Assembly: GCA_024803745.1 (NCBI GenBank)
Contig: JANJXV010000002.1
Location: 42,367,757-42,431,756, forward strand
DNA from: Megascapheus bottae
Lineage: Eukaryota; Chordata; Mammalia; Rodentia; Geomyidae
Reading direction: 5' to 3'
Length of the DNA: 64,000 nucleotides
Under the pieces are notes generated by a model that searched no databases, had not been told where the DNA came from, and saw only the letters and a list, made by a program, of their open reading frames with translations. Positions 13,767-61,719 of this stretch are shown piece by piece (the first letter of the stretch is position 1; the number at the start of each line of letters is the position of its first letter). The position numbers were made by a program, and so were the translations under genes.

Positions 13767-13974
13767 TTTTCTTTTTTTTTTTTTTTGCCAGTCCTGGGCT
13801 TGAGCTCAGGGCTTGAGCATTGTCCTTGGACTTTCTCAAGGCTAGCACTCTACCACTTGAGCCTCAGCACCACTTCCGGCTTTTTGCTATGTATGTGGGG
13901 TACCGAGGAATTGAACCTGGGTCTTCGTGCATGCTAGGCAAGCACTCTACCACTAGGCCAAACTCCCGGCCCCC
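13767..13974 (-). mobile_element. IDL-Geo SINE, antisense
   Basis: Near-consensus copy in complement. Perfect 16-bp target duplication aataaataataattct at 13751-13766 and 13975-13990. Confidence 0.97.
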
Positions 13975-14121: not shown

Positions 14122-15336
14122 AAAGGACATAGCTATTAAATTAGTTAGGAAGCCTACAGAGTGGGAGAAGATCTTCACCAACCATACAACGGACAAAGGC
14201 CTCATATCTAAAATACATCAACAGCTCAAAAAATTAAATCACTCCAAAACTAATCTACAAAGTAACAACCATCCCATTAAAAATGGGCCAAAGACTTAAA
14301 GAGAGCCTTCTCTGAAGAAGAAACAAAAATGGCCTATAGACACATGAAGAAATACTCAACATCTCTGGTCATAAAAGAAATGCAAATCAAAACAACTCTA
14401 AGATTCCACCTCACTCCAGTTAGAATGGCCAGGATCAGGAAAACGAATAATAACAGATGCTGGAGGGGATGTGGCCAGGAGGGATCACTACTACACTGTT
14501 GGTGGGAGTGCAAACTCATTCAACCACTATGGAAAGCAGTGTGGCAGTGCCTCAAAAGGCTAAACATAGAACTCCCCTTTGACCCAGCAATTCCACTACT
14601 TGGCATTTACCCAACCATCCAGAAACTAGGGTATACTAAATCCACTAGCACATCAATGTTCATTGCAGCATTATTCACCATAGCAAAGATATGGAACCAA
14701 CCTAGATATCCCTCAGTTGATGAATGGATCCACAAGATGTGGTATTTGTACACAATGGAATTCTATGCTGCTGTCAGAAAAAATGACATCACCCCATTTG
14801 TTAGGAAATGGAAAGACTTAGAAAAAATCATATTAAGTGAAGTAAGCCAGACTCAAAGGAACTTAGGCTCAATGGTTTCCCTCATTCATCATAACCAGTA
14901 GAAACCTTGGGCTCTAATAGCAAAGATTTGCAATAGAGCAAAAACTTGATACATAAGGCCATATAGTATGAAGCTAATTGAATGGACCTCTAGGATATTG
15001 AAACAAAAGCCATATAATGAATGATTGCTGTCCTTAAGGTGCTATGTTATCTCTCATCTCTTTTGCTGTTCCTTTGTTATCTCATATTGTCACAATATCT
15101 CACTTTGTTATCTGATCTATTGGATACATTTGTATTTGGTTACTTGAAATTGGACAGGGAAGGGGGGAAAACCAAGAGACAGGGAAGGGGGGAAAACCAA
15201 GAGGGGGGGTGGGGGGGAGGGAAATGGGTACCAAGACATGTGGAAGGGTATCAATGTATATGAATTAATGTACCTTCTATCTGGCAAATATCATGTAACC
15301 CTTTTATTAAATACAATAAAAAATATTTAAAAAAAA
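14122..15336 (+). mobile_element. LINE-1, 5'-truncated 3' end, nested in a SINE
   Basis: It carries the C-terminal part of ORF2 (stop at about 14899-14901), a 3' UTR and an A-rich end with aataaaaaatatttaaaaaa. The exact 16-bp target duplication agaaaagctagaagtg at 14106-14121 and 15337-15352 proves insertion into an existing IDL-Geo copy. At about 14283 an A-run one base short shifts the ORF2 frame; otherwise the frame from there to the stop is open. The 3' UTR has a G-rich polypurine tract at 15158-15230. Confidence 0.96.
14283..14901 (+). pseudogene. L1 ORF2 C-terminal fragment
   Basis: The open frame includes [18 protein letters not shown], the L1 C-terminal signature [18 protein letters not shown], and [12 protein letters not shown] then [15 protein letters not shown]. 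These mark the cysteine-containing C-terminal segment downstream of the reverse transcriptase. Endonuclease and RT domains are absent through 5' truncation, and the upstream frame (TEWEKIFTNHTTDKGL..., from about 14140) is out of phase, so it cannot act. It is the least decayed ORF2 stretch in the window. Confidence 0.93.
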
Positions 15337-34559: not shown

Positions 34560-36210
34560 AGTTATTATAATTATCATTAACATGTCAATATGAACATGTC
34601 ACAAGTACTTATACATAATCACTAATAGAATAAACAATCAAAAATGGCAATAGGACAATCATTTGGGTAGAATAGGAAGACCATAGCTTACTTGAAAAAT
34701 ATTAGGAAAATATGAATGAAATATATGAATATATGAAAATATCACAACCTTTCATACCAATTAATATTCAACCTTATACAACTAATATATGCTAATAAAA
34801 ATGTTTCTCCAGCATTGGTATATTGTACCCTCCCTTTACTCGCTACCCTAGAGGTTTTACCCATTATAATGGTAAACAACAAAGAATGCACAATGAAGAA
34901 AAATGCAGTTGTTAAAGGAGAAATAGTGTGATTTCAGGCATATAAACATTGCAGAAGAGTATACAATGAAATTAAAGATATAGAAATATTGTTATGTTAC
35001 TAACCCTGGCTACCTATCCCTCACAAAATCTTCTACTCTTTCCTACTCACTGGTTTGTAATCTTCTGTTTTAAGGAATATCATTGCTCCCCCCCAAAAAA
35101 AACAAGACTTTTCAGAGCACAGCAAATGCAAATCAATCCTAAACAAATACTAGAAAGTTCAAAATTAATATCCTATGTAAAAATTCCAAAAGTCTAAGTG
35201 AGCTATTAATGTCATTTTTAATTATTCTCAGAAGTTTACACTGTGCCTAATTTAGGAAGTTCCACAAAAAGATCTGTACTGCAGCAGTGATAATGGAACT
35301 CTCCAGAAAAACAAGCTGCACCTGCTGAGGAGAAAATTTAGACTGATGTCCATTAAATGTCTACCTGCCACTGTGTAGAACACAAAACTGATAAGGAAAT
35401 TAAGAGTAAGGAAATTAAGAGTGCCAAGGAGAAATGCTGACAAAGTAGAAAAACTAAGAAAGTAAGGGGCCAGGAGTCTAAGAGAGAAGGGAGACATTTA
35501 CAAGGAACACTTTGTGTCATAGCTCTTTTCACTTATGAAAGTATAAACAAAGTTCATTGCTTTACTATTTTTTCTACCTGCTTTTTAAAAATCTATTTTT
35601 TGTTCAGACCTCTTACTTATTGAAAAAAATGCATATTGAAACTAATGTTCCCTTTTTCCCCAAACATTTCCAAATCTCATTGTCCACTTTCATCAAAAAT
35701 GCAAAGTTAGCAAGTCATTTTCCTCTTCTATAAGATGAATATTTATACTAATCTCAGAAGATGACTGGGAAGAGGTATGTAAAAAGATTTAATATAGTTT
35801 TGGAAATGTTTGCTAGGACTTAAATATTTGCTCTTGGCACCAGTATCAAGATTATATTGTTTTCAGTTCTCTAACAATTTTCTAAAATAAACCAGAGCAC
35901 TTGTCTGGTTGTGCTTCATGAGAAATTCAACTTTGATAACTGGCCAGTAAGCTCCTATATCAATTAACACATTTTTCCAGAGCTTCAAGAGTCTTGACAG
36001 TTACTGTGCTCACTGGGTACCTGATTCATCTACTGTCAGTTTGATGTTAGCTATACTTAAAATGAAACTCTCACAGCACTGTTTGGGAAAAGCATGCAAG
36101 TAAAATTATACAGCCTATGAAAGCTCTCAGTTTTTCACTGTACTCTTTCATTCTTCTTGTTTTATGTTTGGACACATTTAGTTTCCAACTGAATCAACCT
36201 TAAAGCTTTA
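34560..36210. other. Intron d-e, unannotated part
   Basis: No element recognised. A 13-bp tandem repeat (aaggaaattaaga) lies at 35393-35422. Confidence 0.6.
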
Positions 36211-36225
36211 AGAAAGAGAAATAAA

Positions 36226-36482
36226 GTCGGGTGCAATGGCTTACACCTGTAATCCTAGGTACTCAGGAGGTTGAGATGTGGGGATCAAGGTTCAGGGCCA
36301 GCTTAGGCACTAAAGACCAAGAGACTCTTATCTCCAAGTAACCATTAAAAAAAACAGACGTGGGGCTGTGACTCAAGGGGTAGGGCAGTAATTTTGAGTT
36401 GAACAGCTCAGAGACAATGCTCAGGCCCAGGGTTCAAGCCTCATGATCAACAAGAAAAAAATAAAAAAGCAAGCAAACAAGT
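36226..36482 (+). mobile_element. B1-Geo composite SINE
   Basis: B1-like head gtcgggtgcaatggcttaca, Geo half ggggctgtgactcaaggggt. Target duplication aagagaaataa at 36215-36225 and 36483-36493. Confidence 0.93.
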
Positions 36483-36494
36483 AAGAGAAATAAT

Positions 36495-36690
36495 AGGGCG
36501 AGGGCATGGCCTACTGCTAGAGTGCTTGCCTAGCACACACTAAGCTCCGGGTTGGACTCCTCAGTACCACATACACAGAAAAAGCCGGAAGTGGTGCTGT
36601 GGCTCCAGTGGTACAGCACTAACCTTGAGAAAGCTCAAAGACAATCCCCAGGCCCTGAGTTCAAACCCAGGACTGGCAAAAAAAAAAAGA
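36495..36690 (+). mobile_element. IDL-Geo SINE with compound microsatellite tail
   Basis: Full dimer abutting the previous SINE's target duplication. Its A-tail leads straight into the 36691-36948 microsatellite. Confidence 0.94.
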
Positions 36691-36741
<51 letters not shown>

Positions 36742-36866
36742 AGACGGGAGGAAGGAAGGAAGGAAGGAAGGAAGGAAGGAAGGAAGGAAGGAAGGAGGGA
36801 GGGAGGGAGGGAGGGAGGGAGGGAGGGAGGGAGGGAGGGAGGGAGGGAGGGAGGGAGGGAGGGAAG

Positions 36867-36945
<79 letters not shown>

Positions 36946-36948
36946 AAA
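36691..36948 (+). repeat. Compound (GACA)-(GGAA)-(GGGA)-(GAAA) microsatellite
   Basis: Four consecutive tetranucleotide blocks: GACA/CAGA to 36741, GGAA to about 36794, GGGA to about 36863, GAAA to 36948. The last three form about 200 bp of pure purine. ORFs through it are artefacts. Confidence 0.98.
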
Positions 36949-37047
36949 GACTTGCAAGTTTTCTTTGACTATTCAGTATAATCTTCTGCCCCAGTTTTGT
37001 GCAGAATCTTCACCTAAGCCTAAAGAGCATATATATCTCTGCTGCAG

Positions 37048-37239
37048 ATTCTGAGTTTCATTCAACCTTTAGAATCCTAAAAAAATCTAATGAAGATAAG
37101 AGGGTACTATAGCCAATCTACACTATGGGAAAACCCACTCCCAATTCTGAGTTCCATTCAACCTTTAGAATCCTAAAAAAATCTAACGAAGATAAGAGGG
37201 TACTATAGCCGATCTATACTATGGGAAAACCCACTGCCA
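37048..37239. repeat. 96-bp tandem duplication
   Basis: Two 96-bp units (37048-37143 and 37144-37239) differ at about five positions. Unit text includes cctttagaatcctaaaaaaa and agggtactatagcc. Not an obvious part of any SINE or LINE. Confidence 0.96.
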
Positions 37240-37361
37240 TCTTCTTTCTGGGAAGGAAGTATCTTCCAGAATACTGTAAGAACTTGTGAGCCTCTGCTGC
37301 AAGTACAAGGAGGGAAAACACATGTTATATAAAAATATTACTAAGGTTCAATTTTTCTTTT

Positions 37362-37551
37362 CTTTTCTTTTTTTCTTTTGGCCAGTCCTGGGCTTGAACT
37401 CAAAGCCTGGGCACTGTCCTTGGACTTTCTCAAGGCTAGAACTCTACCATCTGAGCCTCACACCACTTCCAGCTTTTTTTTTTTTCTATATATGTGGTAC
37501 CGAGGAATCGAACCCTGGTCTTTGTGCATGCTAGGCCAAACTCTCGGCCCC
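37362..37551 (-). mobile_element. IDL-Geo SINE, antisense
   Basis: Target duplication caatttttctttt at 37349-37361 and 37552-37564. The ID-like half lacks about 15 bp (catgctaggccaaactctcg). Confidence 0.95.
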
Positions 37552-37569
37552 CAATTTTTCTTTTTTTAA

Positions 37570-40500
37570 AAGATAACTAAGAAATATCATAATATTTCCC
37601 CATGTGTAAGAAATACCATAACATTCCCCATGATACATTAATCATTTTAGCTTTTGGTAAAGAGCCAAGTCTTCACCACCAAACATCCAAAGTAAATAAA
37701 TAAATAAAAATAAGGAGGCTACACTTCCTCACTAGAAGCTGTGATTCTATAGCCTACGCTACCCCAAAACTTTTCAAGGTCCTACTCTATGCAATAAAAA
37801 TCATTGCTACTATTTTTCTATTAATTTCTATAATCTAGATAGAGTAGCTGGCATAAGCATGTAAAAGAGAAGGAAATTCACTCAAATTGAAATTACATTG
37901 AAGCAGAGTCAATGGACTCTTTTGTTTGATGTAATTCTACCACTTCAAATCAAAGCTATATGACCATGTCAGTTGTTTATGAAAGTAAATTGCTCAAATG
38001 ACAATTTATGTAAGTAGAGGGATACAGAAAAATGCATAGTGCCCCAGAGAACATTTTAGTCATTGCTGAATTTAAAATTTAAAATAAAACACAGCCTACC
38101 AAGCTATTTTAAAATTTTTTAATGAGACAAAAAGAAAAAGGAATGGGGGGAGGGGGCAAATGAAAACAAGCCTAAAAAGGAAACTAACAATACTTGGTCT
38201 ACACTCAAAACATCTCAACATGAAAACAGCTAGCTCTGGAATGGCACAAGTTAATGGTATGTTTCATAGTATAAGTTCACAGACTAAGAAATTCTTTTTC
38301 TGTTAACTATGAACATCCTTCCAAATTTATAAACACTTAACTTTAAAAGAAGATGCATAGTTTACTTTCTTTAAATCTACATCTGGATTTGCAAACCTGA
38401 GTGAAACAGGCTGAGAAAATCTATAATATGAAGACCTATTAGTGTCTTAAGAGGACTAACTTCCTTTCACTAATTACAACTATTATATTAGGCATTTAAT
38501 CAAAGTCAAGTTCAATCTGGAGTAAGCAATATTTGTAGAAATTAGTCTACTGATATTTTATTGAGGAAAAGAAGTAGTGATATACTCTGATTCTTTTGGA
38601 TGTATTTTCATAGCACAACACCTAAAAATCCATTTCTGATAAAATATGATGCTATGTCACTAGAGAGCCTATGGCAAATAAACTGCTTCTTTAAATAGAC
38701 CTATTAATTTTTCAGATAATATCAAAATAATGCTTTTACCCAGAAAATATCAAAATCGCAAATACATTCAAAACAGTAAGGTCATTTACTATACTAATCT
38801 CATTGCCTCTCTATATTCCACATCTTCGTTCTACCCAAATCCCCCAACTCAAAGAAAAATCTACTCTGGGCGTAAGTTTAAACCAATACATTTTATTCAG
38901 TGGAATAGCAGAATGGTACACAATTAGCATCATTTTAGTCATGTCATTATTTCCAGCTCAGTGGCATTTATTCAGATGAGCACAATTTGCAGCCACTGAG
39001 CCCAACTCCTCTGATGTTAACTGGCATCATTAAAACCCTCCCAGGGTCCTACTCCTTTGATCTTTTAAAGAATGCCTTGGGTTTGTGACTAAGAGCCGGA
39101 AACTCACGGCTGGACACCCTCAACAGCATTCATGTTAGGTCACAGAATGCTCACGTCAGCTAATAATCCTCAGCGACAATGATTCTGATTCAAAAGAGAA
39201 ATTTTTCTCCATTTTAAAATTATTTAAACAAAAATCAAAAAGTAGATTAAAATAACATATAGAGGGCAAACATATAGGAGGCCCTAAATATTCTAACTTC
39301 AAAAGCTGAAGTCATAAAGTTTTAAGAATAAAGTGGCCATAAAGATGTTAAGAAATCCAGGAATGGTAAATGGCAGGTGGCAGAGGACAGAGAATAAATG
39401 GATAGAAACAAAATTACAAAGTTATAAAGCTTCAAGACTTAAGTTTTAAATTTTCCTACTTGTATCTTTTGATAGAGCACTCAGTAATCCTATTATCACC
39501 AAATACTTCCTTTAAAAAACTAAACCAACCAATTAAATAGTAATGGAAACTTCATTTCTACTTTAAAAAAAAAAGCTAGTATTTCTATTTCCCCAAACAT
39601 TTCACAGATGGCTTCTGTGTGTTAATAGTACCAATTATATAAATGTAATACAGTCCATTAAAATTTTATTTCAAAGATGAAATAACATATTTAAAAATCT
39701 ATTTGCCAGGAGACAAAGTAAATGTTATAATACCTAAAAACACTTAATAAAAGGCAAGTTCCTGCTGTCCTTTTAAAGTTAAAAATAAGGACAAACTACA
39801 ACTTTGGATTGCAAAGAGTCATTGTATAGCATATAAAAAGCTCAGCATGGAAATAGATTCAACAAATGCACAAAAAGAGTTTTCATGTCCAGGAAGAACT
39901 AAAGACATCAAAAAAAAATAGGCCCCTGACTACAAATAACAGAGCCCAACTCTAAAAGACCAGCAAATTCATTCTCTAATGCATAGCAAATTAAATTTAA
40001 TCAACTCCTGTGCAAGGTTAGCAGGCATTCCACCTTTAAAAGTCTCCACAAACAAAACCATAAGAACAACAAAAGAGGTTCCAGAGTATAATAAATACCA
40101 AATCCACAGTAGGTGACAGAAGCCTTACTGTACACAGCTGAAAAAAAATCTGACACCAAAACAATGGATCACATTTCCATACTGAATTATATTTATCACA
40201 CTAAAAAATGCCTACACAAAATAGCAGCATTTCTATAGACCATTTTTATACCATCCTAAGTCCAGAAAACCTTCCAAACCTGCTGGGACCCATTGAGAAT
40301 TGCTCCCACCCCATAATGCTCCAAAACAGACTACTGCAGACAAAGGGCAAGAATGACAGGAGGGGGCAAAGACAACTCCCTTCCACCATAATTGCTGAAA
40401 ATAAATAAATAAAAGAGGATAGAAAAGCCAAAACATAACCCTGGCACAGGGTATTTCCGGGGAAATCACTGCTGTGACAAATGCCTGAAATGAACTCTTC

Positions 40501-41455
40501 CAGCGGTCAAGAATCCCCAGGAAAGGCCCCGCCCCTCCTTATCTATTGCTCAATTGTACAATACTCTGCTTTGAAAATATAACACCCTCATAGAGCTAGG
40601 CAAGATGAAAGAGCTTTTCTTCACGATTTTGCAATGCCTATTAATTTTTGCTACAACAGACTCACAACTGATTAAGAAAACACAGAGCTAGCTAGCCCTG
40701 CCAAACATTCTCATGTTAAAGCTTTAAGAGAGAAAATATTAAATGTGAATGAACCCTCTTTTTAAAAACAAATACAGTAATTTTATTTCTGCACAGACTA
40801 TATAGCTGTTTCTCCTCAATCTCTAAGCAATTTCTTTAAACCAAGAACTATCATCTACCTTTGAAATACCAATAGTGATGTTACTTGATTGCTGTGCTGT
40901 TACAGAATTAACTTTCAGAAATATTATGACTCATTCATTGCCACTCACAGCACCCACAGAGAATCAATGATTGAAGGAGGAAGCTTAAACTGTTCTCAAA
41001 GCATTCTCACACTTCATCAAAACTCATGAAGCAACATGAAGAACACAAAGTCCATCAAAGGAGTATTAAAATCTCCACATTACCCCATATTCCCATGGTT
41101 AAACTTTCGAACACGAGTAAATATTATCTATATGTCAAAGCTGTTATGAATTTTAACACAAAGCATAATGTACCAAATGGCATTGTAAAAAAAAGTGCCA
41201 AAGAAAATAGCTTTTATAGTTCTGTGTAATAACGTATTATAAAATGTACAGATCATTGAAATATGAAATTACAGATGAAATTACCATTGTAGTCAACATG
41301 GAGACTAAGGAAATATGAGACAATGTGTACTTATAAATTTTGTAGGAACCACAGAAATCAAATTATTTACACCAAACACTCTGACCACATTTCCACTAAT
41401 ATATCCAAAATACTACCATTTGATAGATAATCAGTTTTTAACATTTTGTCAATGA
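37570..41455. other. Intron d-e, about 3.9 kb without recognised repeats
   Basis: The longest repeat-poor stretch in the window. No exon-like ORF with splice sites was found on either strand. 39040-39180 and 40490-40560 are locally less AT-rich and could be conserved noncoding sequence; I cannot test that. Confidence 0.5.
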
Positions 41456-41457
41456 CA

Positions 41458-41610
41458 CAGTCATGTGTCCCTTAACAGGAAGATACATTCCAAGACGTGT
41501 GACTAATCAATATTGTCACTGTGCAAATAACAGTGTGCTTAAAGTAATTAAAATAGCATTATATGACTAGGCAATATTCTTGTAGGAACCTTGTTACATA
41601 TTCCATTGCT
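41458..41610 (+). repeat. Ancient interspersed repeat (class uncertain)
   Basis: The text cagtcatgtgtcccttaaca, gatacattccaaga and attgtcactgtgcaaataac resembles an old mammalian-wide element that begins with a CAGTCATG terminus. Family not named with confidence. Confidence 0.45.
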
Positions 41611-41789
41611 GACTAGCAACCCGTGGGTATACTAGACATACTGTGCTTTACACAAGTAATCCTTGGACATGTAGACAGTTTTGGATGGTGCAAATTTGAA
41701 TCACTACCTAAAACAATTTCCTCATAGTCCTTGCCAGTCTATCTCCTACCCTCACTCCTGATCTCTGATTAAGAGCTCTTATATCAGAT

Positions 41790-42320
41790 TTGCCTGTTCT
41801 TGAATTTAATTAAGTAGTAACCATAAATATAGGCAGACTCAATAACCAGCTATTTTCACTGAGCATGTTTTCAAGAGTCATCCACATTTGTTTATGTAGC
41901 AGGGATCTATTCCTTTTTCTTGCAGAATAGGGTTTCATGTTACAAATATACATTTTGTTTACTCCTTGGCCAGTTAATGGATGTCTGCATCACTTTCAAA
42001 CACATTGACATTAGTGACATCAATATTCTTACGTAAATCTTTTTGTTTTTATGGGTATGTTTTGATTGACCTAGGAAAAGTGGAATTGTGAGATCCAAGA
42101 TAGTTTTATAATATCTTTCTATAACAAATGTCCAAATACTTCACAGCAGTTGTTTCCTTTTACATTCTTGCCAGCATTATGTGGCATCCAGCTATTCCTT
42201 ATCTTCTCCAATATTTGGTATTGTTTTTCATTTCAGTATTTGCAGGGGTGTATATATTTCTCAAGACCAACAGTGTTGTCACAGTTTCATGTTTGTTGTC
42301 TACTCATATAACTTTGTTTC
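41790..42320 (-). mobile_element. Old L1 ORF2 3' end, antisense
   Basis: The plus strand reads the complement of the L1 ORF2 terminus: gagcatgttttcaagagtca tccacattt, cattttgtttactccttggc cagttaatggatg, then aaaagtggaattgtgagatc. Diverged and broken. Confidence 0.75.
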
Positions 42321-42434
42321 TTTGAAAATAAGAAGGTGAAAGTATTGTTACAAGAACAAACTGAGATGACATATAAATTACTTGTAATGCTGAAATAGGG
42401 ATATAATTCTAAAGACTAAAAGAGTCAAATAGTA

Positions 42435-42440
42435 GATGAT
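42435..42440 (+). repeat. 6-bp target-site duplication, left copy
   Basis: gatgat, matching 45372-45377 exactly. Six bases is the usual size for class II (ERVK-type) integrases. Confidence 0.9.
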
Positions 42441-42795
42441 TGCCGGGAGCCTAGTAACGCCATGTCAAATAACTTTCTGCTGAAACAAGACAAGAGGCAG
42501 GGCCCAAGACTTGATTACCATTGGTTACAAATGTGTTATGGCTTTATCACTCTCTGCTGAGTCCTAGAGTGAGGGTATATTAGCTGGAGGGACTTCCTCA
42601 GGAGGGGTTTTTTTGGGGGGGAGAGAGATTCCTGCCTTGACAAACCTGGCTGATGTGTCTGTTTGTCCTCTGGGGAAGGAGGGCTGGGTGCAGGTGGACA
42701 GTGAGTCTTCTCCTCACTTGGCTCGTCCTGGTCAGGGCGTGTTTTCCCTATCCCTCCTGCTGATGGAGAGGGACCAGGGAAGAAGGACCCTGACA
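42441..42795 (+). repeat. 5' LTR (355 bp)
   Basis: Begins TGCCGGGAGCC and ends CCCTGACA. It has a TATA-like tatatta (42577-42583). Where the related solo LTR at 61271 has cctcaataaa, this one reads cctcaggagg, so no AATAAA signal is visible. A G/T-run (42606-42620) replaces that region. Confidence 0.93.
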
Positions 42796-42798
42796 TTC

Positions 42799-42816
42799 TG
42801 GCGCCCAATGTGGGGC
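42799..42816 (+). promoter_or_regulatory. Primer binding site, tRNA-Lys type
   Basis: tggcgcccaatgtggggc, three bases after the LTR, matches the 3' end of tRNA-Lys1,2 with one mismatch (t for c at position 11). This site type is typical of betaretrovirus-like and ERVK elements. Confidence 0.93.
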
Positions 42817-42859
42817 ATGAAAGGGGCACGATGGCGAATTAAGCCAAGCGAGATACATG

Positions 42860-43650
42860 GAGGAGGGACTGAAGGCCCAGGGAAACCTGAAAGGAAAATA
42901 ATGCAAAGAAAATGGAAAAGGAGGGACTGAAGGGCCAGGGAAACCTGAAGGGAAAATGCTGACTGAAGTTGCTCACAGGGAAAAAGAAAAAGACAGCGAA
43001 GAAGACAAGGAGAAAGGGACAAAGAGAAAGACAAAGTGAAAGAGAAAAAGGAAAGGTGGTAAAGAGGAGAAAGGGAAGCTACCTGCAAAAGTCAAAGAAG
43101 AAAAACTCCTCAAAGACGAAAAACCAAAGAAACCTGAAAGGCACAAAGAAAAACAAAAAGGAGGGACTGAAGGGCCAGGGATACCTGAAGGGAAAATGCA
43201 GGCTGGAGTTGCTCACAGTGAAAAACAAGACAGAGAGGAAGAAAAAGGAAAAAGAGAGAGACAAAGAAAAAGAAATACCAGAAATGAAGAAAACACAAGA
43301 AAAGAAAGCTAGGCTAAAGAAAATACTAAAGAGAAGACTATGAAAGTGAAAGGTGGTAAACAGGAGAAAGGGAAGCAACTACATGCAAAAGTCAAAGAAG
43401 TAAGAAAAACTCAGACTGAAAAGCCAGAGAAAACTGAAAGGAAAATACAAACTAAAGTTGCTCACAAAGTAAAAGAAAAACCTATTTAATAAAAGAAAAA
43501 GAAAAACCCATAAAGAAAGCAACCCACAAGGAGAAAATTGAGAAAAAAGAAAAACCAAAAACTCCTCCCAAAGCTAAGGAGAAAGAAGACAAAGAAGGTG
43601 TAGCTGTGTCAAAGCAGAAAGGTGCTCTATGTTGGGCAAGACACAGATAG
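42860..43650 (+). pseudogene. Triadin (TRDN)-derived cDNA segment inside the LTR element
   Basis: Purine-rich region whose translation matches the lumenal KEKE-rich part of triadin in blocks. In one frame: 43340-43486 gives VKGGKQEKGKQ..AKVKEV then TEKPEKTERKIQTKVAHK. In another frame: 43492-43626 gives KEKPIKKATHKEKIEKKE, KPKTPPK and KEKEDKEGVAVSK. Earlier diverged copies of the TE..KPE.K..T.V.H.EKEK block start at 42868, 42926 and 43166, and a KGGK.EKGK..AKVKE block at 43052. Triadin is a junctional sarcoplasmic reticulum protein that binds calsequestrin and the ryanodine receptor. Blocks occur without introns, repeated and out of triadin order. Stops and frameshifts (for example TAA at 43487) prevent a product. 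The match rests on remembered triadin sequence and is an inference. Confidence 0.82.
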
Positions 43651-43802
43651 ACTCAAAGTAAAACAGATGAAAAAGGCCAAAATCAGACTACAAGTAAGCA
43701 TAAAAGACTTGCACAGACCATTCCCAGTCCGCCTCCGAAGCGCAGGTGACTTCAGCACAGTGGGGAAACACTGAGGAACCTCGCAGAAGTCTCTGGCCCA
43801 GA

Positions 43803-43811
43803 ACGGTAAGG
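43803..43811 (+). promoter_or_regulatory. Candidate leader splice donor
   Basis: aacggtaag matches a strong 5' splice site and lies between the TRDN-like segment and the possible gag remnant, where retroviral leaders usually carry the major donor. Function is not shown. Confidence 0.4.
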
Positions 43812-43823
43812 GCGAGGCAATGA

Positions 43824-44006
43824 GGGGTTCAAAAAAGAACCGGAATTAGGGGCTCCGAAAAAGAACCAGAATTAGGGGCTCAGAAAAAGAACCGGAATAA
43901 GGGGCTCAGAAAAGAACCAGAATAAGGGGTTCAGAAAAGAACCGGAATAAGGGGTTCAGAAGCTTCCAACAACCGGGAATAATGGGTTCAGAAGCTTCTA
44001 AGAACC
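43824..44006 (+). repeat. Degenerate tandem repeat (about 26-bp unit, about 7 copies)
   Basis: Repeated ggggYtcagaaaagaaccRg aataa units, with the last two enlarged by agcttcYaa. It lies just upstream of the possible gag remnant. Confidence 0.93.
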
Positions 44007-44009
44007 GAA

Positions 44010-44440
44010 TGGTTAGTTATAAAAGATTTACTTAAAGCTAATGGTATTGCAGTAAAAGAAACCATGGTTGAGGCTTAAAGCTTTGTTTTAAAACTTGGTT
44101 CTCACTTGCAAGAATAAGATTAATTTTGTGCACTTTAAGATCTTTAAGTATGAATGTATGAACGGGTGTGAGTGAACATGTTCAAGGTTAAGTTGTCAGC
44201 ATGCTATGTAAAATAATGGATGAATTTATACTTGAAACACGAAGGCAATTGGGTAAATCGCAGTCAACTATATGGCAACTCATACGGGAGGAAACAAATG
44301 GTTAAAGAACAGGTGGAAAGAAGCGCAGAGGTGCTTGGAGAAATACTTGAGAAAGAGGAAGAATTAAGTGGTAATGATTTAGAAAGCCTAAGCTCGGGTG
44401 CAGAATTGCAAGACAGAGAGCCACTGCCCATAGTTTAAAA
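44010..44440 (+). pseudogene. Possible gag matrix remnant, inactive
   Basis: A short frame from 44010 to a stop at 44076-44078 has the length and hydrophobic/basic pattern expected at the start of a betaretrovirus-like matrix domain. A second open stretch (44220-44438, 72 codons) is acidic. No zinc-knuckle, protease or RT motif is seen. The assignment is an inference from position and composition. Confidence 0.4.
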
Positions 44441-44999
44441 TAGGCTAAGCTTTTTAGGGTCCCTAGCTAAATATAGAGACAACACCCCTGAGTCAGCTTG
44501 AAGAAGTTATAGAAGATGAATCTTCGCCCATCAAGCCCCTTTAAAATGAAGGGACCAGAGTCATTTTTGGAAAGTGGATAGGATAAATTAGAGACATGGG
44601 AGACAGTAGTAACAGATGTGCAAGAAGGGCAAGGGAGAGTACAGTGTGCACATTAGACATTAGAGTTGTTGCTTTTGAAACAAGGGGGTGGGGGATTGGA
44701 AGACTCCCAAGGAAAATAATACAATGTCAACGTAGACAGTGAATGCTAATAGGACAGGCGTTTTCAGCCATGGAAAAAGGAACATCCCCTCAGGTCTGTC
44801 TTGCTTAAATGGACGGCTGGTAGTCAAAGATAGGCAAGTCCCAGCTATTAGCCTATCAACCTAAGACAGGAGCCAAGTAAAAAGGACTTGGTGATCACAT
44901 GACGGGTAAGAGAACTAATAAGCTTGGAGACACCTAAGACAGGCACAGTCGATCTGATATGATGGTAGCCCCACATATCTTAGGTTTTTTCTTTTTTCT
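44441..44999 (+). other. Internal 3' region of the LTR element, no coding recognised
   Basis: Broken in all frames. It contains no recognisable pol or env signature. Confidence 0.6.
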
Positions 45000-45014
45000 A
45001 AAAGACGGGGGAGA
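45000..45014 (+). promoter_or_regulatory. Polypurine tract
   Basis: aaaagacgggggaga sits directly before the TG of the 3' LTR, as required for plus-strand priming. Confidence 0.9.
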
Positions 45015-45371
45015 TGATGGGAGCCTAGTAACGCCATGTCTAATAACTTTCTGCTGAAACAAGACAAGACAAGAGGCAGGGCGCAAGACTTGATTACCAT
45101 TGGTTACAAATGTGTTATGGCTTTATCACTCTCTGCTGAGTCCTAGAGTGAGGGTATATTAGCTGGAGGGACTTCCTCAGGATGGTTTTTTGGGGGGAGA
45201 GAGATTCCTGCCTTGACAAACCTGGCTGACATGTCTGTTTGTCCTCTGGGGAAGGAGGGCTGGGTGCAGGTGGACAGTGAGCCTTCTCCTCACTTGGCTC
45301 GTCCTGGTCAGGCCGTGTTTTCCCTATCCCTCCTGCTGATGGAGAGGGACCACGGAAGAAGGACCCCAACA
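45015..45371 (+). repeat. 3' LTR (357 bp)
   Basis: Begins TGATGGGAGCC, ends CCCCAACA. Shares the cctcagga and T/G-run structure of the 5' LTR, so the loss of AATAAA predates this insertion. Carries an extra acaag unit in an (acaag)n run near 45060. Confidence 0.93.
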
Positions 45372-45377
45372 GATGAT
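45372..45377 (+). repeat. 6-bp target-site duplication, right copy
   Basis: gatgat, identical to 42435-42440. Confidence 0.9.
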
Positions 45378-45780
45378 ATAAATCTAAAAGCCAAGAGAAC
45401 TGTAGCAAAGTAAAGTATACCCCCACACACAATCACATATACATATATAAATCCATATATCAAGACAGTTTTGTCCAGACTGGCTCAAATTATCTGTATT
45501 TTTAATTTTAGGGTTAAAGCTTTACAAGCTCTATCAAGTGATACCTAATGCTTGCTGTGGCATTAGACAGGGAGGAGAGAGGTGAACCATCTCCTCTTTT
45601 CCTTTCCATACCTGCTCTCTTCACCTCTCTGCTCACCAGAAGGAAGATAAAGCATGTCTATTTGAACACTATTTTGAAAAAGGCAAGTCTTTATTATATA
45701 AATAGGACCCATTCACATTTACAAACATCTATATGTCTAAAGCAGAATACAGTAACAACTTTACTAAGGGGGAAAAAAAT

Positions 45781-46022
45781 GCCAGATGTGGTGGATCATG
45801 CCTGCAATTCTAGTTTCTAGCTACTCAGGACGTATAAAGACATAAGGATCCCAGTTCAAAGCCAGCCCGGACGCTAAAGTCTGGGAGACTCATCTCCAAT
45901 TAACATCCAGAAAACTAGAAGTGGTACTGTGGCTCAAGGAGTAAGGAGGAAGCCTTGAGCTGAAGAACTCAGGGACAACACCCAGGCCCAGAGTTCAAGT
46001 TCCACAACAAACAATAAAAAAG
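45781..46022 (+). mobile_element. B1-Geo composite SINE
   Basis: Head gccagatgtggtggatcatg; right half gtggtactgtggctcaagga; A-rich tail. Confidence 0.9.
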
Positions 46023-46243
46023 CCATTGGTATAGGGATTGAAATAGGAATTCTGGACAAAAGATAACTTTCAAAAAAGAATCCTTTCAAAATATCCACAG
46101 AAAAATATATAAAAAATAAAGTATTTCATTTTTACATCTTTTCAACATCTCTGAGATCAAAGACATATGCATATGTCTGCTGGTATCTATAATTCTTTAA
46201 ATTCCAAAATAGAGGCTTGAATGGGTCAAAATTTTTCTTTATT

Positions 46244-46282
46244 TGAAAATATTTTATTGTAATTAATAGAGGGGTTATATGC
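46244..46282 (-). repeat. Very short L1 3' end, antisense
   Basis: attttattgtaattaataga ggggttata matches the last bases of the L1 3' UTR in complement; only about 40 bp long. Confidence 0.6.
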
Positions 46283-46537
46283 TGAAACAAAAAAAAACAA
46301 TTTAGACTTCTCTTTTCTTTAGTAATAGTTTGGAATACTTGGATATGTAAGATTTTGGAATTCTGATAAGCCCAATGGCATACCAGAAACTCTGTGTAAT
46401 AGTAACACAAACTAACTGTTCTTACTAACAAATAATATTGCCAAAAACCTGAATACCAACATATTTTAGTCTCTTTATTAGATTAACATGGTAAGTTACT
46501 AAAAGTAACTAGTTAATAAGATCAGAAAATATCTTTT

Positions 46538-46750
46538 GCCTGGCTATACTGGCTCACACTTGTAATCCTAGCTACTTCAGAGGTGGAGCTTAGAAAGATT
46601 GTAGTTCAACCAAGGTGAAAAGCTAGCAAGACCCTATCTCAACAAATAAACTGGGTCTGGCAAATCATCCCTTTAATTCTAGCTATGCTTGAGTCATAGA
46701 TATGAGGATCATGGCCCAAAGATACCTTCAGCAAAAACTGTGAGATCATT
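46538..46750 (+). repeat. Old tandem B1-like SINE
   Basis: Two diverged 7SL-type monomers (ggctcacacttgtaatccta and caaatcatccctttaattct) with an A-rich linker; a counterpart lies at 49940 and 57418. Confidence 0.6.

Positions 46751-46751
<1 letters not shown>

Positions 46752-46820
<69 letters not shown>
46752..46820. repeat. (CT)n microsatellite
   Basis: About 34 CT units running directly into the antisense L1 poly-T end. Confidence 0.97.
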
Positions 46821-46821
<1 letters not shown>

Positions 46822-46825
<4 letters not shown>

Positions 46826-47095
46826 TTTCAATGTATAGAGGGGTTACAGTTATATTCGCCAGATAGAGGTTACACATATTGATACCCCTTATGTTTTGTC
46901 CCCATTTCCCTCCCCTCCCCCCTCCCCTCATTTTCCCCCTCCTATTTCAAATAAACAAGTGAACATCTATATAATATACCAGGTAACAAAGTGGGATACT
47001 GTAACAATATGAGATTAACCACAAGAGAAAAAAAAACATAATATATAAAGAATAACAGTCACATAATTAAGCTCTTATTTCCATGTCCTGGAAGA
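46822..47095 (-). mobile_element. L1 3'-UTR, antisense
   Basis: Complement of the L1 3' UTR: aatgtatagaggggttacag, C-rich complement of the G tract (46905-46940), taccaggtaacaaagtggga. Confidence 0.9.
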
Positions 47096-47099
47096 ACCA

Positions 47100-47550
47100 G
47101 CTAAGCCATTTCTGAAAAGTAATAAAACAAAAAAGGATTGGAGATAGAGCTCAGAGAGTATCCCAAACTACAAACTCCAGTGCAGCTCAGAAAGCCAAAA
47201 GAATCTTTAAAATTCCAAAAATATGTAGTATAAGAAAATCATCAAAAGGAAAGGAATTCTTTCACACATGAAATTACTTCTTAGACTGCTACTTTTAAAG
47301 AGAGAAAAATGGGAATTTGAAAAACCAATAAAAATGATTTGACTACTTAAGACATCTTCACTCCATGCAAAGTAATTAAACCATTATTATTTTTAGAAAC
47401 TTAAAGAAGTCAAAATATAAAGAAGGAAAATGAAAATTTTGTAAAATGCATGTGTGTAAAAAATAATGAAAATGAATCTGGAAAAATGAGAAACTTATGA
47501 TGTCTACTAAATTTTATTATCCAAGCAATATGATGCTATAAGAAAGTAAC
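47100..47550. other. Intron d-e, unannotated part
   Basis: No element recognised. Confidence 0.55.
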
Positions 47551-47556
47551 ACCTTA

Positions 47557-47805
47557 ACCAGGAGCAGGAAGCTCATACCTGAAATGCTAGCTACTCAGGA
47601 AGCTGAGATTGGATTTGAGGATCACAGTTCAAAGCCAGCCCAGACAAAAAGTCCATGACATACTTATATCCAATTAACCAATACAAAGCCAGAAGAGGAG
47701 CTGTGGCTCAAATAGTAGAGGTTTAGCCTTGAGCAAAAAAATTAAAAACAAAACAAAACAAAAAACAAAGAGGATAAAGAGCTCCTAAGTTCAAGCCCCA
47801 GAACA
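47557..47805 (+). mobile_element. B1-Geo composite SINE
   Basis: Head accaggagcaggaagctcat; Geo half gaggagctgtggctcaaata. Its tail grades into (CA)n/(CT)n. Confidence 0.88.
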
Positions 47806-47900
47806 CACACACACACTCTCTCTCTCCCCCCCTCTTGCTTTCTCTCTCTCTCTCTCTCTCACTCTCTCACTCTCTCTCTCACACACATACATACACACAT
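47806..47900. repeat. (CA)n-(CT)n-(CA)n microsatellite
   Basis: Compound dinucleotide array seeded at the SINE tail. Confidence 0.95.
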
Positions 47901-47904
47901 GAAT

Positions 47905-48260
47905 AATAACAAGTATGGGTGAAGATGTAAAGAAAATTGAAATCTTCATTATTGCTACAATAATCCCTTTAGTAAGTTCTTCTTTACAAGTCCTTCAAAT
48001 GGTTAAAATTTAGATTCTCCATACAACCAAGAAAATTCCAGTTCTAGGACTGAATTTCTAAAAGTAAAAGGGCACTTGAACAAAACCTAAACATAAATAT
48101 TCATAACATTATTGTTCAAAATGGCAAAAATAGAAGCAAATAGCCATCAATTGATGAATCACTAAATGGGTAGATACTATTCAACTGTGAAAAGAACCTA
48201 ACATATGTTATAACATGTACTCGATGGGCAATAAAATCATGTCACAAGAAACAGGATCCC
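47905..48260 (+). repeat. Old L1 ORF2 3' end, degenerate
   Basis: Reads like diverged L1: aatattcataacattattgt, then aaaatagaagcaaatagcca tcaattgatgaatc and gggtagatactattcaactg. No open frame. Confidence 0.7.
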
Positions 48261-48289
48261 ATGTTTTCTTGTATTTGTTCACATGAAGT

Positions 48290-49925
48290 ATCCAGAACCC
48301 CTGTTTTTGAGACAGAACAGACTGTTCTCTCTGTGGTATTGGCTGCATGATGATGTAAAACATGTAACTGTGAGCATTGAAAGGAAGACTTAAACATAAT
48401 GAATTCTGACTCAGTGTAGTTGCTATTTTAAAGAGAAAGTATTGCTTCTCAAAGCTATTACTCTGTATTTTAAGTCAGAGAGACCTAAGAAAGTAGGCAA
48501 ATGACGCAGGGTGGGACCAAAAGTGAAGAGAATCCTGGATGGAAAAGATAAGGAACACAGAATGCAGCGTATTTATTACTTTGCTTTGAAAATGACAACC
48601 CTTTGGCTTAAAGACAAATGAAATTACTTTCTTTCAATGCCCACATCTTTCAAAGGAAGGAAGCCTGGAAAAAAACAAAAAAGCAGGAGACTCAAGAGTC
48701 TTGGATCATATGACTTCAGGAAACTTAACTGAATGCCAGAGCCTCTGTTTCTTTACTAGGAAACAAAATTTTGCCATCCTTGTATCAGTGAATGCCAAAA
48801 TTTATTCCAGATACCCTTGAAATGCTAGTTGAATTTCTTTTTCGAGAAAGATATTTAGCCTTAAAAGAAACTAATGCAGTCCAAATCAATTTGGCAATAA
48901 TGTTAAGGAAAAAGTAAGTTGCTGTAATTCCAGACTTCTAAACTACATTCTCATCTTTATGGTCAATCAGGATGTCGAGAATCTTCTGTGATTTTCTGAG
49001 CAGAGAATCAAAAAGAATTTATATTAGAAATGAAAATCTGTATCATGATAAGGCTGGGCATTAGGTAGATGAGATCTTTATAAAAATCTCTTATTAATGT
49101 TCATGTTAATGAGTAAGCAGCAGTAACTATAAACTTAATCTGCCTCCATTAAAGATAACTTAATCTTTCAAATGGAATGACTTTCAAATGTAAGAGTTCA
49201 TTATCAACTTTAAGAGGGAAAAAGCAGTATCTACTACACAAAGGCAAGTTTGGAAAGGTCATGCAAATTCAATGGCAAATGATTTTCTGAGTGATACATT
49301 TTCTAAAAGCTGAGTTAATTCAGTTTTACTATTTTATCCTTATTGATTGATGTCATTGTTTTAGACATTTTTTTCTATATTCCTACTGATATTTGATAGT
49401 CAAAACTCTAAAAAGTAATAGAAAAGTCTCTGCATGATGCTGGAAAATGGGTATACCACACTGAATACATTTTTATTTTGTTTGGTACCACACCAATGCT
49501 TAGCACATGATACAAATTAGAAGACAGAAGACATAGCCTCATAGAACATGTACTGACTCGTGAGGACAGCATGAGAGCCAAAAACCAAAAGATTAGTCCT
49601 GGACTAGTTAATGTGCCTGGCAAGGACTGCTAAATTCAATGAATTTTACAACTTTAACACACATCACAGGATATGACAGCAGCAATGTCACAAATAATGA
49701 AAATAATCATAAGTACAGACTGACAGACAACTTGGAAAGCATTAAGTAAAACAGAAGGAGACACGAAGTCTCAAAATCTCATCAAGCGTACTATTTCTAC
49801 TTATTTAGATGAACATAAAGCTATTCACCAGCAACCATTAGAAAAGACTGTTTTTAGTGCCAAAACAAATAGCAAAACAGCTTCAACACACAGCATAGTT
49901 CAGGTTATCTGTAGTATCTATTTTT
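48290..49925. other. Intron d-e, mostly single-copy-looking
   Basis: 48690-48790 weakly resembles a MIR core (cctctgtttctttactagga). The rest holds nothing recognised. Confidence 0.5.
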
Positions 49926-49935
49926 TAAATAATAT

Positions 49936-50280
49936 GGTACTGCTAGGTGTGGCGGTATATTCCAACAATCCTAGCTACGCTAGAGGGAAAAAAATCAGAA
50001 AAGGTCAGAAAGGCCTCCTAGGGCAAAAAAAAAAAAAAGTTTGTGAAATCTCCATTTCAACAAGCAAGCCAGGCATGCTGGTACCTATGTACATATGGTA
50101 CCTTTGTAGCATGAGCTACAATGGAAATACAGGTAATGTAATTACAGTCAAAATGGAGGGAGGAAAGGGAGCAAAAGACACTACCTAAAAAATTCTAAAG
50201 CAAAAGATGCAGCAGGGCTATGGCTCCAGTAGAAAAGATCCTTACAAGTATGAGGTCCTGAGTTCAAACTACAGGAGAGA
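49936..50280 (+). repeat. Old composite SINE (two B1-like plus a tRNA/Geo-like unit)
   Basis: Contains tgctaggtgtggcggtatat, a second monomer ccaggcatgctggtacctat, and a 3' part gcagggctatggctccagta ...gtcctgagttcaaac. An older relative of the B1-Geo design. Confidence 0.55.
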
Positions 50281-53940: not shown

Positions 53941-54175
53941 GAAAGAAAGAGAGAGAGGGGGAGGGGGGAGGGAGGGAGGGAGGGAGGAAAGAAAGGAAGA
54001 AAGAAAGGAAGGAAGAAAGAAAGAAAGAGAAACGAAGGAAGGAAGGAAGGAAGGAAGGAAGGAAGGAAGGAAGGAAGGAAGGAAGGAAGGAAGGAAGGAA
54101 GGAAGGAAGGAAGGAAGGAAGGAAGGAAGGAAAGAAGGAAAGAAGGAAAGAGAGAGAGGGAGAGGGAGGGAGGGA
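53941..54175 (+). repeat. Purine microsatellite (GAAA)/(GGGA)/(GGAA)n
   Basis: About 235 bp of almost pure purine, mainly (GGAA)n at 54034-54136. ORFs in it are artefacts. Confidence 0.98.
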
Positions 54176-54709
54176 AACTTATCCTATGGAAATTATCAGT
54201 ATAGAAAACTATTTCTTCCTGGTCCTTGTTCTGGTATCAGATACTGACTTCGAAAGCAGAGATCCCAGATCAGAAGATGACTTATGGTAGAAGTGATACT
54301 AAGTGGTTATACTTACCACAATAACAGCGATAAAAACAATACTACTAGAAATTTTACTAACTGAGCACCTATCTCATAACAGGTACCATGCTAGATTCAC
54401 TAATGCAACTTCTCAGAATACCTTTCACTACATAGTAACTTGGGTCCATCTCTGAATCCTTGTTATCTCAATTATATTATACTTTTCTTCCATAATAAAA
54501 TGTCAATTTATAAAATTGTCTGTAAAATGAAAATGACTTTCACTATCCCATAAATGAAAATGACTTTCCAAAATGAGAAAATCTGACAGATCTAGAGGTA
54601 GTAAGTGAAATGAACACTGAACAAGTTATTAATTTAATAGACCCTGACCTACTCTGATATCTAACCTCTCTTGTAGTTCAGCTTTAAGTAATATAAGAAT
54701 GTCAGAATG

Positions 54710-61270: not shown

Positions 61271-61719
61271 TGTTGGGAGCCAAGTGTAGGATCAGGCTGG
61301 CCAATGAATCTGCATCACTGAGTAAATGAGCTGTTGTATGATGCCATGCCCAACTTCGAGCTATATTGTTGGTATTGTGAATCACTTTCTGAGATTTGAT
61401 TACCATTGGGCACTAATGTGTTATTGCTTCATCACTCTCTGCTGAGACCTATAGTGAGCATAAACACATGAACCTCCCCCGCCCTGCCCACCTTTGTGTT
61501 GATAGGCTCCTGCACCCTATATTAGCTGAATGTACTTCCTCAATAAACGAGTTCCTGCCTTGACAGTCCTCCTTGATTTGTCTGATTGGCCTCGGCAAGG
61601 GAGGGCTGGGTGCAGGCTGTCAGTAGGCCCTCTCCTTTCTCAGCTTGTAGTGGTAGGGGTGTGTTCTCTCTCTATCCTCCTGCGGGTAGGGAGGGACCGA
61701 GGACTAAAAACCCCTGACA
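61271..61719 (+). mobile_element. Solo LTR (449 bp), related to the LTRs at 42441/45015
   Basis: Starts TGTTGGGAGCC, ends ACCCCTGACA. Perfect 6-bp target duplication tccctc at 61265-61270 and 61720-61725. Shares gatttgattaccattgg, catcactctctgctgag, tatattagctg and cctccttgatttgtctg-type text with the 42-45 kb LTRs. It keeps a TATA-like tatatta and AATAAA at 61542. Internal region lost by LTR-LTR recombination. Confidence 0.95.

Follow-up and report, generated by a model that had tools for sequence, protein, structure and literature searches.

The LTR element on the plus strand at 42441-45371 of the window (the whole 64,000-nt stretch of Megascapheus bottae DNA analysed here) carries in its leader a segment which, judged by DNA comparison, is shown to be a spliced retrocopy of part of the host triadin gene (TRDN), comprising exons 5-8 and up to about 125 nt past the exon-8 splice donor. 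Its carrier is a multicopy family of LTR elements, of which the window copy has no recognisable gag or pol. Taken as a whole, the data are best explained by capture of a spliced TRDN piece, for which leader splicing and template switching are the proposed route, followed by its spread as a passenger, a reading to which we give a probability of about 0.88.

The window copy displays the defining architecture of an LTR retroelement, with paired LTRs, TG...CA termini, a primer site and a target-site duplication. The 5' LTR (42441..42795, plus strand, 355 nt) and the 3' LTR (45015..45371, plus strand), delimited by mutual alignment, both start with TG and end with CA, and 335 of their 351 aligned columns are identical (K2P 0.038, 13 differences over 352 sites). 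Direct reading revealed the 6-bp duplication GATGAT on each side of the element, at 42435..42440 and 45372..45377 (unstranded). A primer binding site that we take to be of the tRNA-Lys type begins 3 nt beyond the 5' LTR (42799..42816, plus strand), and the element leader that follows (42817..42849, plus strand) ends ...CCAAGCGAG and precedes the triadin junction. Beyond the triadin segment, the remainder of the internal region (43716..45014, plus strand) shares parts with other copies of the family and includes a 25-nt tandem repeat array of the element (43819..43961, plus strand), with similar repeats in several related copies.

Across the rest of the internal DNA of the window copy, stops interrupt all frames. 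Ten open pieces of the internal region matched no Pfam family above cut-off and pol was not found, leaving unconfirmed the possible gag remnant proposed in a preliminary description of this DNA. Support for the candidate class II (ERVK-like) assignment made there comes from the combination of a 6-bp duplication with a primer site presumed to be of the Lys type. No relative turned up among the viral contigs and phage records searched, and an Rfam scan of window positions 36000-50000 returned no family. A related but longer type of LTR (448 nt) occurs as a solo copy at window positions 61272-61719, where it is flanked by a separate 6-bp duplication, TCCCTC; over parts of its length it shows 73-88% identity to the LTR of the element.

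Searched at protein level, the genome to which the window belongs (2.84 Gb) proved to contain TRDN on the plus strand of a single contig, C4, where triadin residues 8-81, 74-136 and 264-285 matched at 91%, 78% and 91%, respectively. The exons concerned all have AG/GT borders and lie on the plus strand at 29159837-29159896 (exon 5, 60 nt), 29168613-29168678 (exon 6, 66 nt), 29171953-29172009 (exon 7, 57 nt) and 29177471-29177653 (exon 8, 183 nt). The numbering allows for the exons that begin the match at 29117878 and at 29140098, for another of 33 nt at 29141308-29141340, and for an exon 1 whose position was not found.

Comparison of the window with this gene yielded matches with E values of 1.3e-47 and 2.0e-32, plus further exon-sized matches, which resolve into successive units on the plus strand. 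The first, partial unit (42850..42900) derives from exon 5 (blastn to C4 29159836-29159886, 80%, E 1.9e-7). The second (42917..43111) is exon 5/6-like and then contains part of the first half of exon 8, matching positions 9-108 (E 1.5e-15) and 217-306 (E 2.9e-18) of the spliced mRNA. In the third (43149..43412), a single alignment to mRNA positions 1-303 (72.6%, E 4e-48) covers exons 5-6-7 and the first half of exon 8, and in the fourth (43413..43562) exons 5-6-7 are joined at their splice borders (mRNA 16-169, 89.6%, E 1e-55). The second half of exon 8 follows at 43546..43715, together with DNA past the donor to intron nt 123 (C4 29177572-29177776, E 1.3e-47; mRNA 285-489, E 9e-50); extension nt 1-35 are absent from the window copy.

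The element therefore reads 5-6-7-first half of 8, 5-6-7 again, second half of 8 plus extension, against 5-6-7-8 in TRDN; in the window and in certain other copies these are preceded by one more partial unit. The order is accounted for by a single additional set of exons 5-7 lodged within exon 8, for which two template jumps would suffice. The preliminary description had noted duplicated blocks that were out of order, correctly so, because the second set of exons 5-7 interrupts the middle of exon 8. The triadin-like peptide blocks that it listed are present as described. The extent given there, 42860-43650, does hold triadin homology, but at the DNA level the limits are 42850-43715; likewise, the shared frame that it describes is correct for those blocks that lie in 42908-43483, with stops, but the first block (about 42873) and the last (EKEKPIKKATHKEK...) lie in another frame.

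To characterise the family, we scored 40 copies by their insert (L001-L020 and L023-L042, L001 being the window copy) out of 331 first-look candidates. LTR sequence lies just upstream of the insert in 39 of them, the exception being L006 with a 36-nt match to the LTR start, and in 37, window included, the insert is preceded by a primer site agreeing at 14-18 of 18 positions. An exact 6-bp duplication was absent from the flanks of copy L002. These 40 copies do not amount to 40 independent insertions, because six of them on one contig, C33 (L036, L037 and L039-L042), look like one segmental duplication cluster, sharing a match pattern at distances of about 67-193 kb.

Two further sets were picked without regard to the insert: four of the 40 places scored when the downstream part served as query (3559 candidates), and nine of the 40 scored with the LTR end plus leader (1155 candidates), a query that includes 3 nt of the insert. 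Both sets were hand-picked, not random, and neither overlaps the first 40 copies; the figures 331, 3559 and 1155 are candidate counts, not copy numbers. Triadin exons were present in 4/4 downstream-picked and 9/9 LTR/leader-picked copies, L065 missing the exon 5 start, and no element without the insert occurred among these 13. The insert is family-wide, and the capture belongs to the element family, not to a single copy. The host piece has been multiplied with the element (39/40, 4/4 and 9/9 copies), as in host-gene-transducing elements.

Exon-by-exon searches of the 40 copies at E<=1e-4 revealed exon 5 in 40, exon 6 in 34, exon 7 in 16, exon 8 in 40 and the first 130 nt after exon 8 in 32; the corresponding 50 dinucleotide shuffles reached at most 6, 10, 6, 1 and 0 copies. 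Spliced-junction probes with a score of at least 24, above every shuffle, spanned 5|6 in 14 copies, 6|7 in 17 and 7|8 in 9. Six unspliced TRDN probes, seven TRDN intron flanks of 150 nt each, and TRDN exon 3, exon 4 and the exon after 8 were each found in 0/40. The majority of copies no longer clearly show any one spliced junction; a looser score of 20 gives 32 (5|6), 27 (6|7) and 11 (7|8) of 40, but shuffles attain 20-22. Out of a possible 40, the window copy scores 35 at 5|6, 38 at 6|7 and 22 at 7|8, the last junction being eroded and its score within the shuffle range. The exon-8|extension probe spans in only 4/40 copies.

The preliminary description had proposed that nucleotide identity ending at TRDN exon borders would support capture of a spliced transcript. 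This pattern was found, with exons 5-6-7-8 joined and the intron flanks and unspliced probes absent from all 40 copies, and the splice-border joins support such a capture at the DNA level. The description of the segment as intronless holds for introns 5-7, but not beyond the exon-8 donor, past which the segment continues. Spliced host sequence thus lies between the LTRs, a hallmark of host-gene transduction.

The left edge is precise. In the window, the match to TRDN sets in no more than about 2 nt from the first base of exon 5, and a pattern search detected the left junction motif at the exon-5 start in 33/40 copies; the 150 nt upstream of TRDN exon 5 matched none of the 40. We had considered TRDN exon 4 or intron 4 as the source of the leader before exon 5, a candidate dropped given the lack of exon 4 in all 40 copies and a best leader match in the intron-4 region of 12/17. 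At the right edge, homology runs past the exon-8 donor, and the longest matches end 123-126 nt beyond it. The 30 copies that match at E 1e-6 differ in where their longest extension piece stops: intron nt 123-126 (11 copies), 102 (3), 61 (1) or 36-37 (15). Where the extension match is long, as in 15 copies, it starts at nt 36 in six. The next 270 nt of intron past the extension are found in 0/40 copies.

Read past the exon-8 donor, host TRDN encodes ten codons and then a stop. Mouse TRISK32, a cardiac isoform, has exon 8 as its last exon, together with its 3' UTR (PMC13401598). By its sequence, the captured RNA is likewise spliced upstream and unspliced at exon 8, like TRISK32, because introns 5-7 are absent and homology extends beyond the exon-8 donor; the extension that marks exon 8 as unspliced and terminal occurs in 32/40 copies. 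From this we infer an origin from cardiac-type expression.

The composition of the segment raises the question of whether K/E-rich low-complexity DNA might merely resemble triadin. Against a provisional human triadin sequence, the three window frames scored 193, 99 and 133, compared with 102 +/- 9.8 (maximum 142) for the best of three frames in 500 dinucleotide shuffles; among codon shuffles, the frame scoring 99 was reached in 89/500 and the other two in 0/500. In the best frame, the controls reached 143 with reversed triadin and 138 with the K/E-rich portion that comes later in the protein. With K, E, R and D zeroed, two frames (39 and 41) exceeded all 1000 full shuffles (maxima 33 and 27), and the third, at 16, was reached by 449/1000. 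Using the same protein, tblastn without SEG returned E values of 4.9e-6 and 0.001 under two composition corrections, and with SEG 0.004 under one and nothing under the other; across copies it matched 10/20 and missed 10/20. Four triadin-like pieces gave nothing above cut-off in Pfam. In the PDB, the provisional triadin had no match, and of two window pieces one reached at most 13.9 bits, to unrelated chains, and the other nothing. The protein-level resemblance taken by itself is good, not conclusive, because the triadin reference was provisional.

The host's own spliced exons provide a stricter comparison, matching the window at 201 bits against a maximum of 43.7 for 200 dinucleotide-shuffled mRNAs, and this answers the low-complexity control that the preliminary description had called for. 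A chance resemblance could draw on the purine-rich composition, on the one frame that is no better than shuffles and on the high score of reversed triadin, but it is contradicted by the 201-bit match and by an exon-8 extension matching at up to 96.8% over 124 nt, and we consider it extremely improbable. The matches at exon borders and across the extension refute low complexity, and on the exon-border evidence we likewise reject an unrelated retroviral leader as source of the segment.

As to how the piece was acquired, a route combining leader splicing with template switching appears to us somewhat more probable than the other capture routes. Under this proposal, a copy of the element lying in TRDN ahead of exon 5 would have driven a chimeric transcript in which a splice donor in the element leader was joined to the exon-5 acceptor and exons 5-8 were spliced, with transcription ending as in TRISK32 and the exon-8 donor unused. 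This chimeric RNA would have been co-packaged with element RNA, and reverse transcriptase would have returned to the element template within the exon-8 extension. Two more switches would have placed the second exon 5-7 copy into the middle of exon 8. The founder would then have spread with proteins supplied in trans, its triadin piece being a non-coding passenger leader that was later lengthened again by unit duplication.

No insert-free relative was found that would show a donor in the parental leader, so the left junction could also have arisen by template switch. Template switching at both ends onto a free packaged TRISK32-type mRNA, with no leader splicing, has a published counterpart in the model for LTR-mediated retrocopies, as excerpts of that work present it (PMC5408686), and the internal duplication already requires jumps between TRDN templates; the left edge within about 2 nt of the exon's first base, which random switching would rarely produce, makes this the less favoured option, if one of real weight. 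Much further down the scale is the insertion, into an LTR element, of a processed triadin pseudogene generated by a LINE. The piece is indeed a spliced retrocopy, and LINE-linked retrocopies predominate in mammals according to the same excerpts (PMC5408686), but the insert occupies the same place behind the LTR in 39/40, 4/4 and 9/9 copies, so that such an event would at best describe the founder. Moreover, the right edge in the window has no poly-A tract, and the edges of the window insert share no word longer than 5 nt and thus no target duplication of their own. A late pseudogene insertion is rejected on the exon-border evidence, and a LINE origin in general seems to us very improbable.

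Returning to captured spliced TRDN carried as a passenger, we compared codon positions among the best 20 copies (16-20 usable per block), which are not independent and whose blocks are short. Pairwise differences at positions 1/2/3 were 0.061/0.060/0.031 in block C, 0.186/0.110/0.124 in block A, 0.070/0.078/0.131 in block B and 0.078/0.073/0.059 in block D. Only block B, with its third-position excess, looks constrained. The triadin insert probably spread as a non-coding leader, because three of four blocks lack such an excess, and the pattern argues against a translated phase early on, without excluding it. As for the once continuous coding insert envisaged in the preliminary description, no evidence of coding use by the element was seen.

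A related possibility is that the triadin part was kept because it is useful to the element, in packaging, in RNA export or through a made peptide. Its presence in 13/13 copies picked without regard to the insert, the repeated unit duplication and the third-position excess in block B would agree with this, but every frame of the window copy is interrupted by stops, third-position excess is missing from blocks C, A and D, and persistence by itself would equally be predicted for a passenger of a young founder lineage; we therefore regard usefulness as unlikely. The more specific idea of a cardiac-isoform mRNA fragment acting as a functional leader, kept and repeatedly lengthened because its purine-rich RNA would help packaging or export, with copies that may feed triadin-matching small RNAs, strikes us as doubtful to the same degree.

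LTR divergence bears on age. The K2P distance of 0.038 in the window compares with 0.103 in L002 and 0.076 in L012, whose 3' end is cut. Rodent substitution rates are a few 1e-9 per site and year, which together with the LTR distance dates the window insertion to some millions of years ago. Median K2P divergence from the host gene is 0.061 for the extension (15 copies with at least 60 aligned nt) and 0.126 for exon 8 (40 copies); the lower value may simply reflect better preservation of those 15 copies.

Oncogene-transducing retroviruses are proposed to acquire host sequence through read-through or spliced chimeric RNA followed by a non-homologous right-hand switch. The route proposed here is alike, but it involves a muscle gene, no oncogene, and fossil defective copies. 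ETn-like non-autonomous rodent elements, an LTR family moved in trans, have internal regions made up mostly of foreign DNA; the present family resembles them in its foreign internal DNA and in the proposed trans mobilisation, with the difference that the source gene is identified.

Crocodilian ERVs that captured KIT-ligand and nectin3 similarly took host mRNA into an endogenous retroviral lineage and multiplied it along, as described in excerpts (PMC4299795). In those elements KIT-ligand is placed between pol and env, nectin3 takes the position of env, and the captured genes are open frames under purifying selection (PMC4299795), whereas the mammalian case reported here is a leader fragment, duplicated and mostly without sign of coding constraint. 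For maize Bs1 and LTR-mediated retrocopies, the available excerpts report host RNA joined to an LTR element and propose template switching (PMC5408686); here, in contrast, the left edge is an exon border and the right edge an isoform-specific terminal exon, in a mammalian family.

Host-gene capture by LTR elements is thus already known from crocodile ERVs and maize Bs1, and the triadin instance is apparently new, for which the lack of any triadin capture among the titles and abstract openings listed from an open-licence library, apart from passing mentions in two papers, is weak evidence; a search of that library for triadin peptides gave no paper either. The family preserves, in a mammal, a readable trace of non-oncogene transduction by an LTR element, and both edges of the captured piece can be placed on the source gene. 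It also indicates that host-gene pieces with no apparent coding function can be kept durably within an element family. If the TRISK32 interpretation is correct, retroelements had access to that RNA in germ-line cells. In species of this kind, repeat libraries could otherwise mislabel triadin exons as repetitive, or element copies as triadin.

Other repeats and coding remnants occur elsewhere in the window. An open frame of 190 aa at 14329-14901 is presumably the C-terminal part of a LINE-1 ORF2, and 13895-13966 on the minus strand is a tRNA-Ala(AGC) gene or a tRNA-derived repeat. Two mutually similar arrays of an 8-nt unit lie at 36653-36896 and 53944-54195, and 37048-37239 is a 96-nt tandem duplication whose copies are 95% identical.
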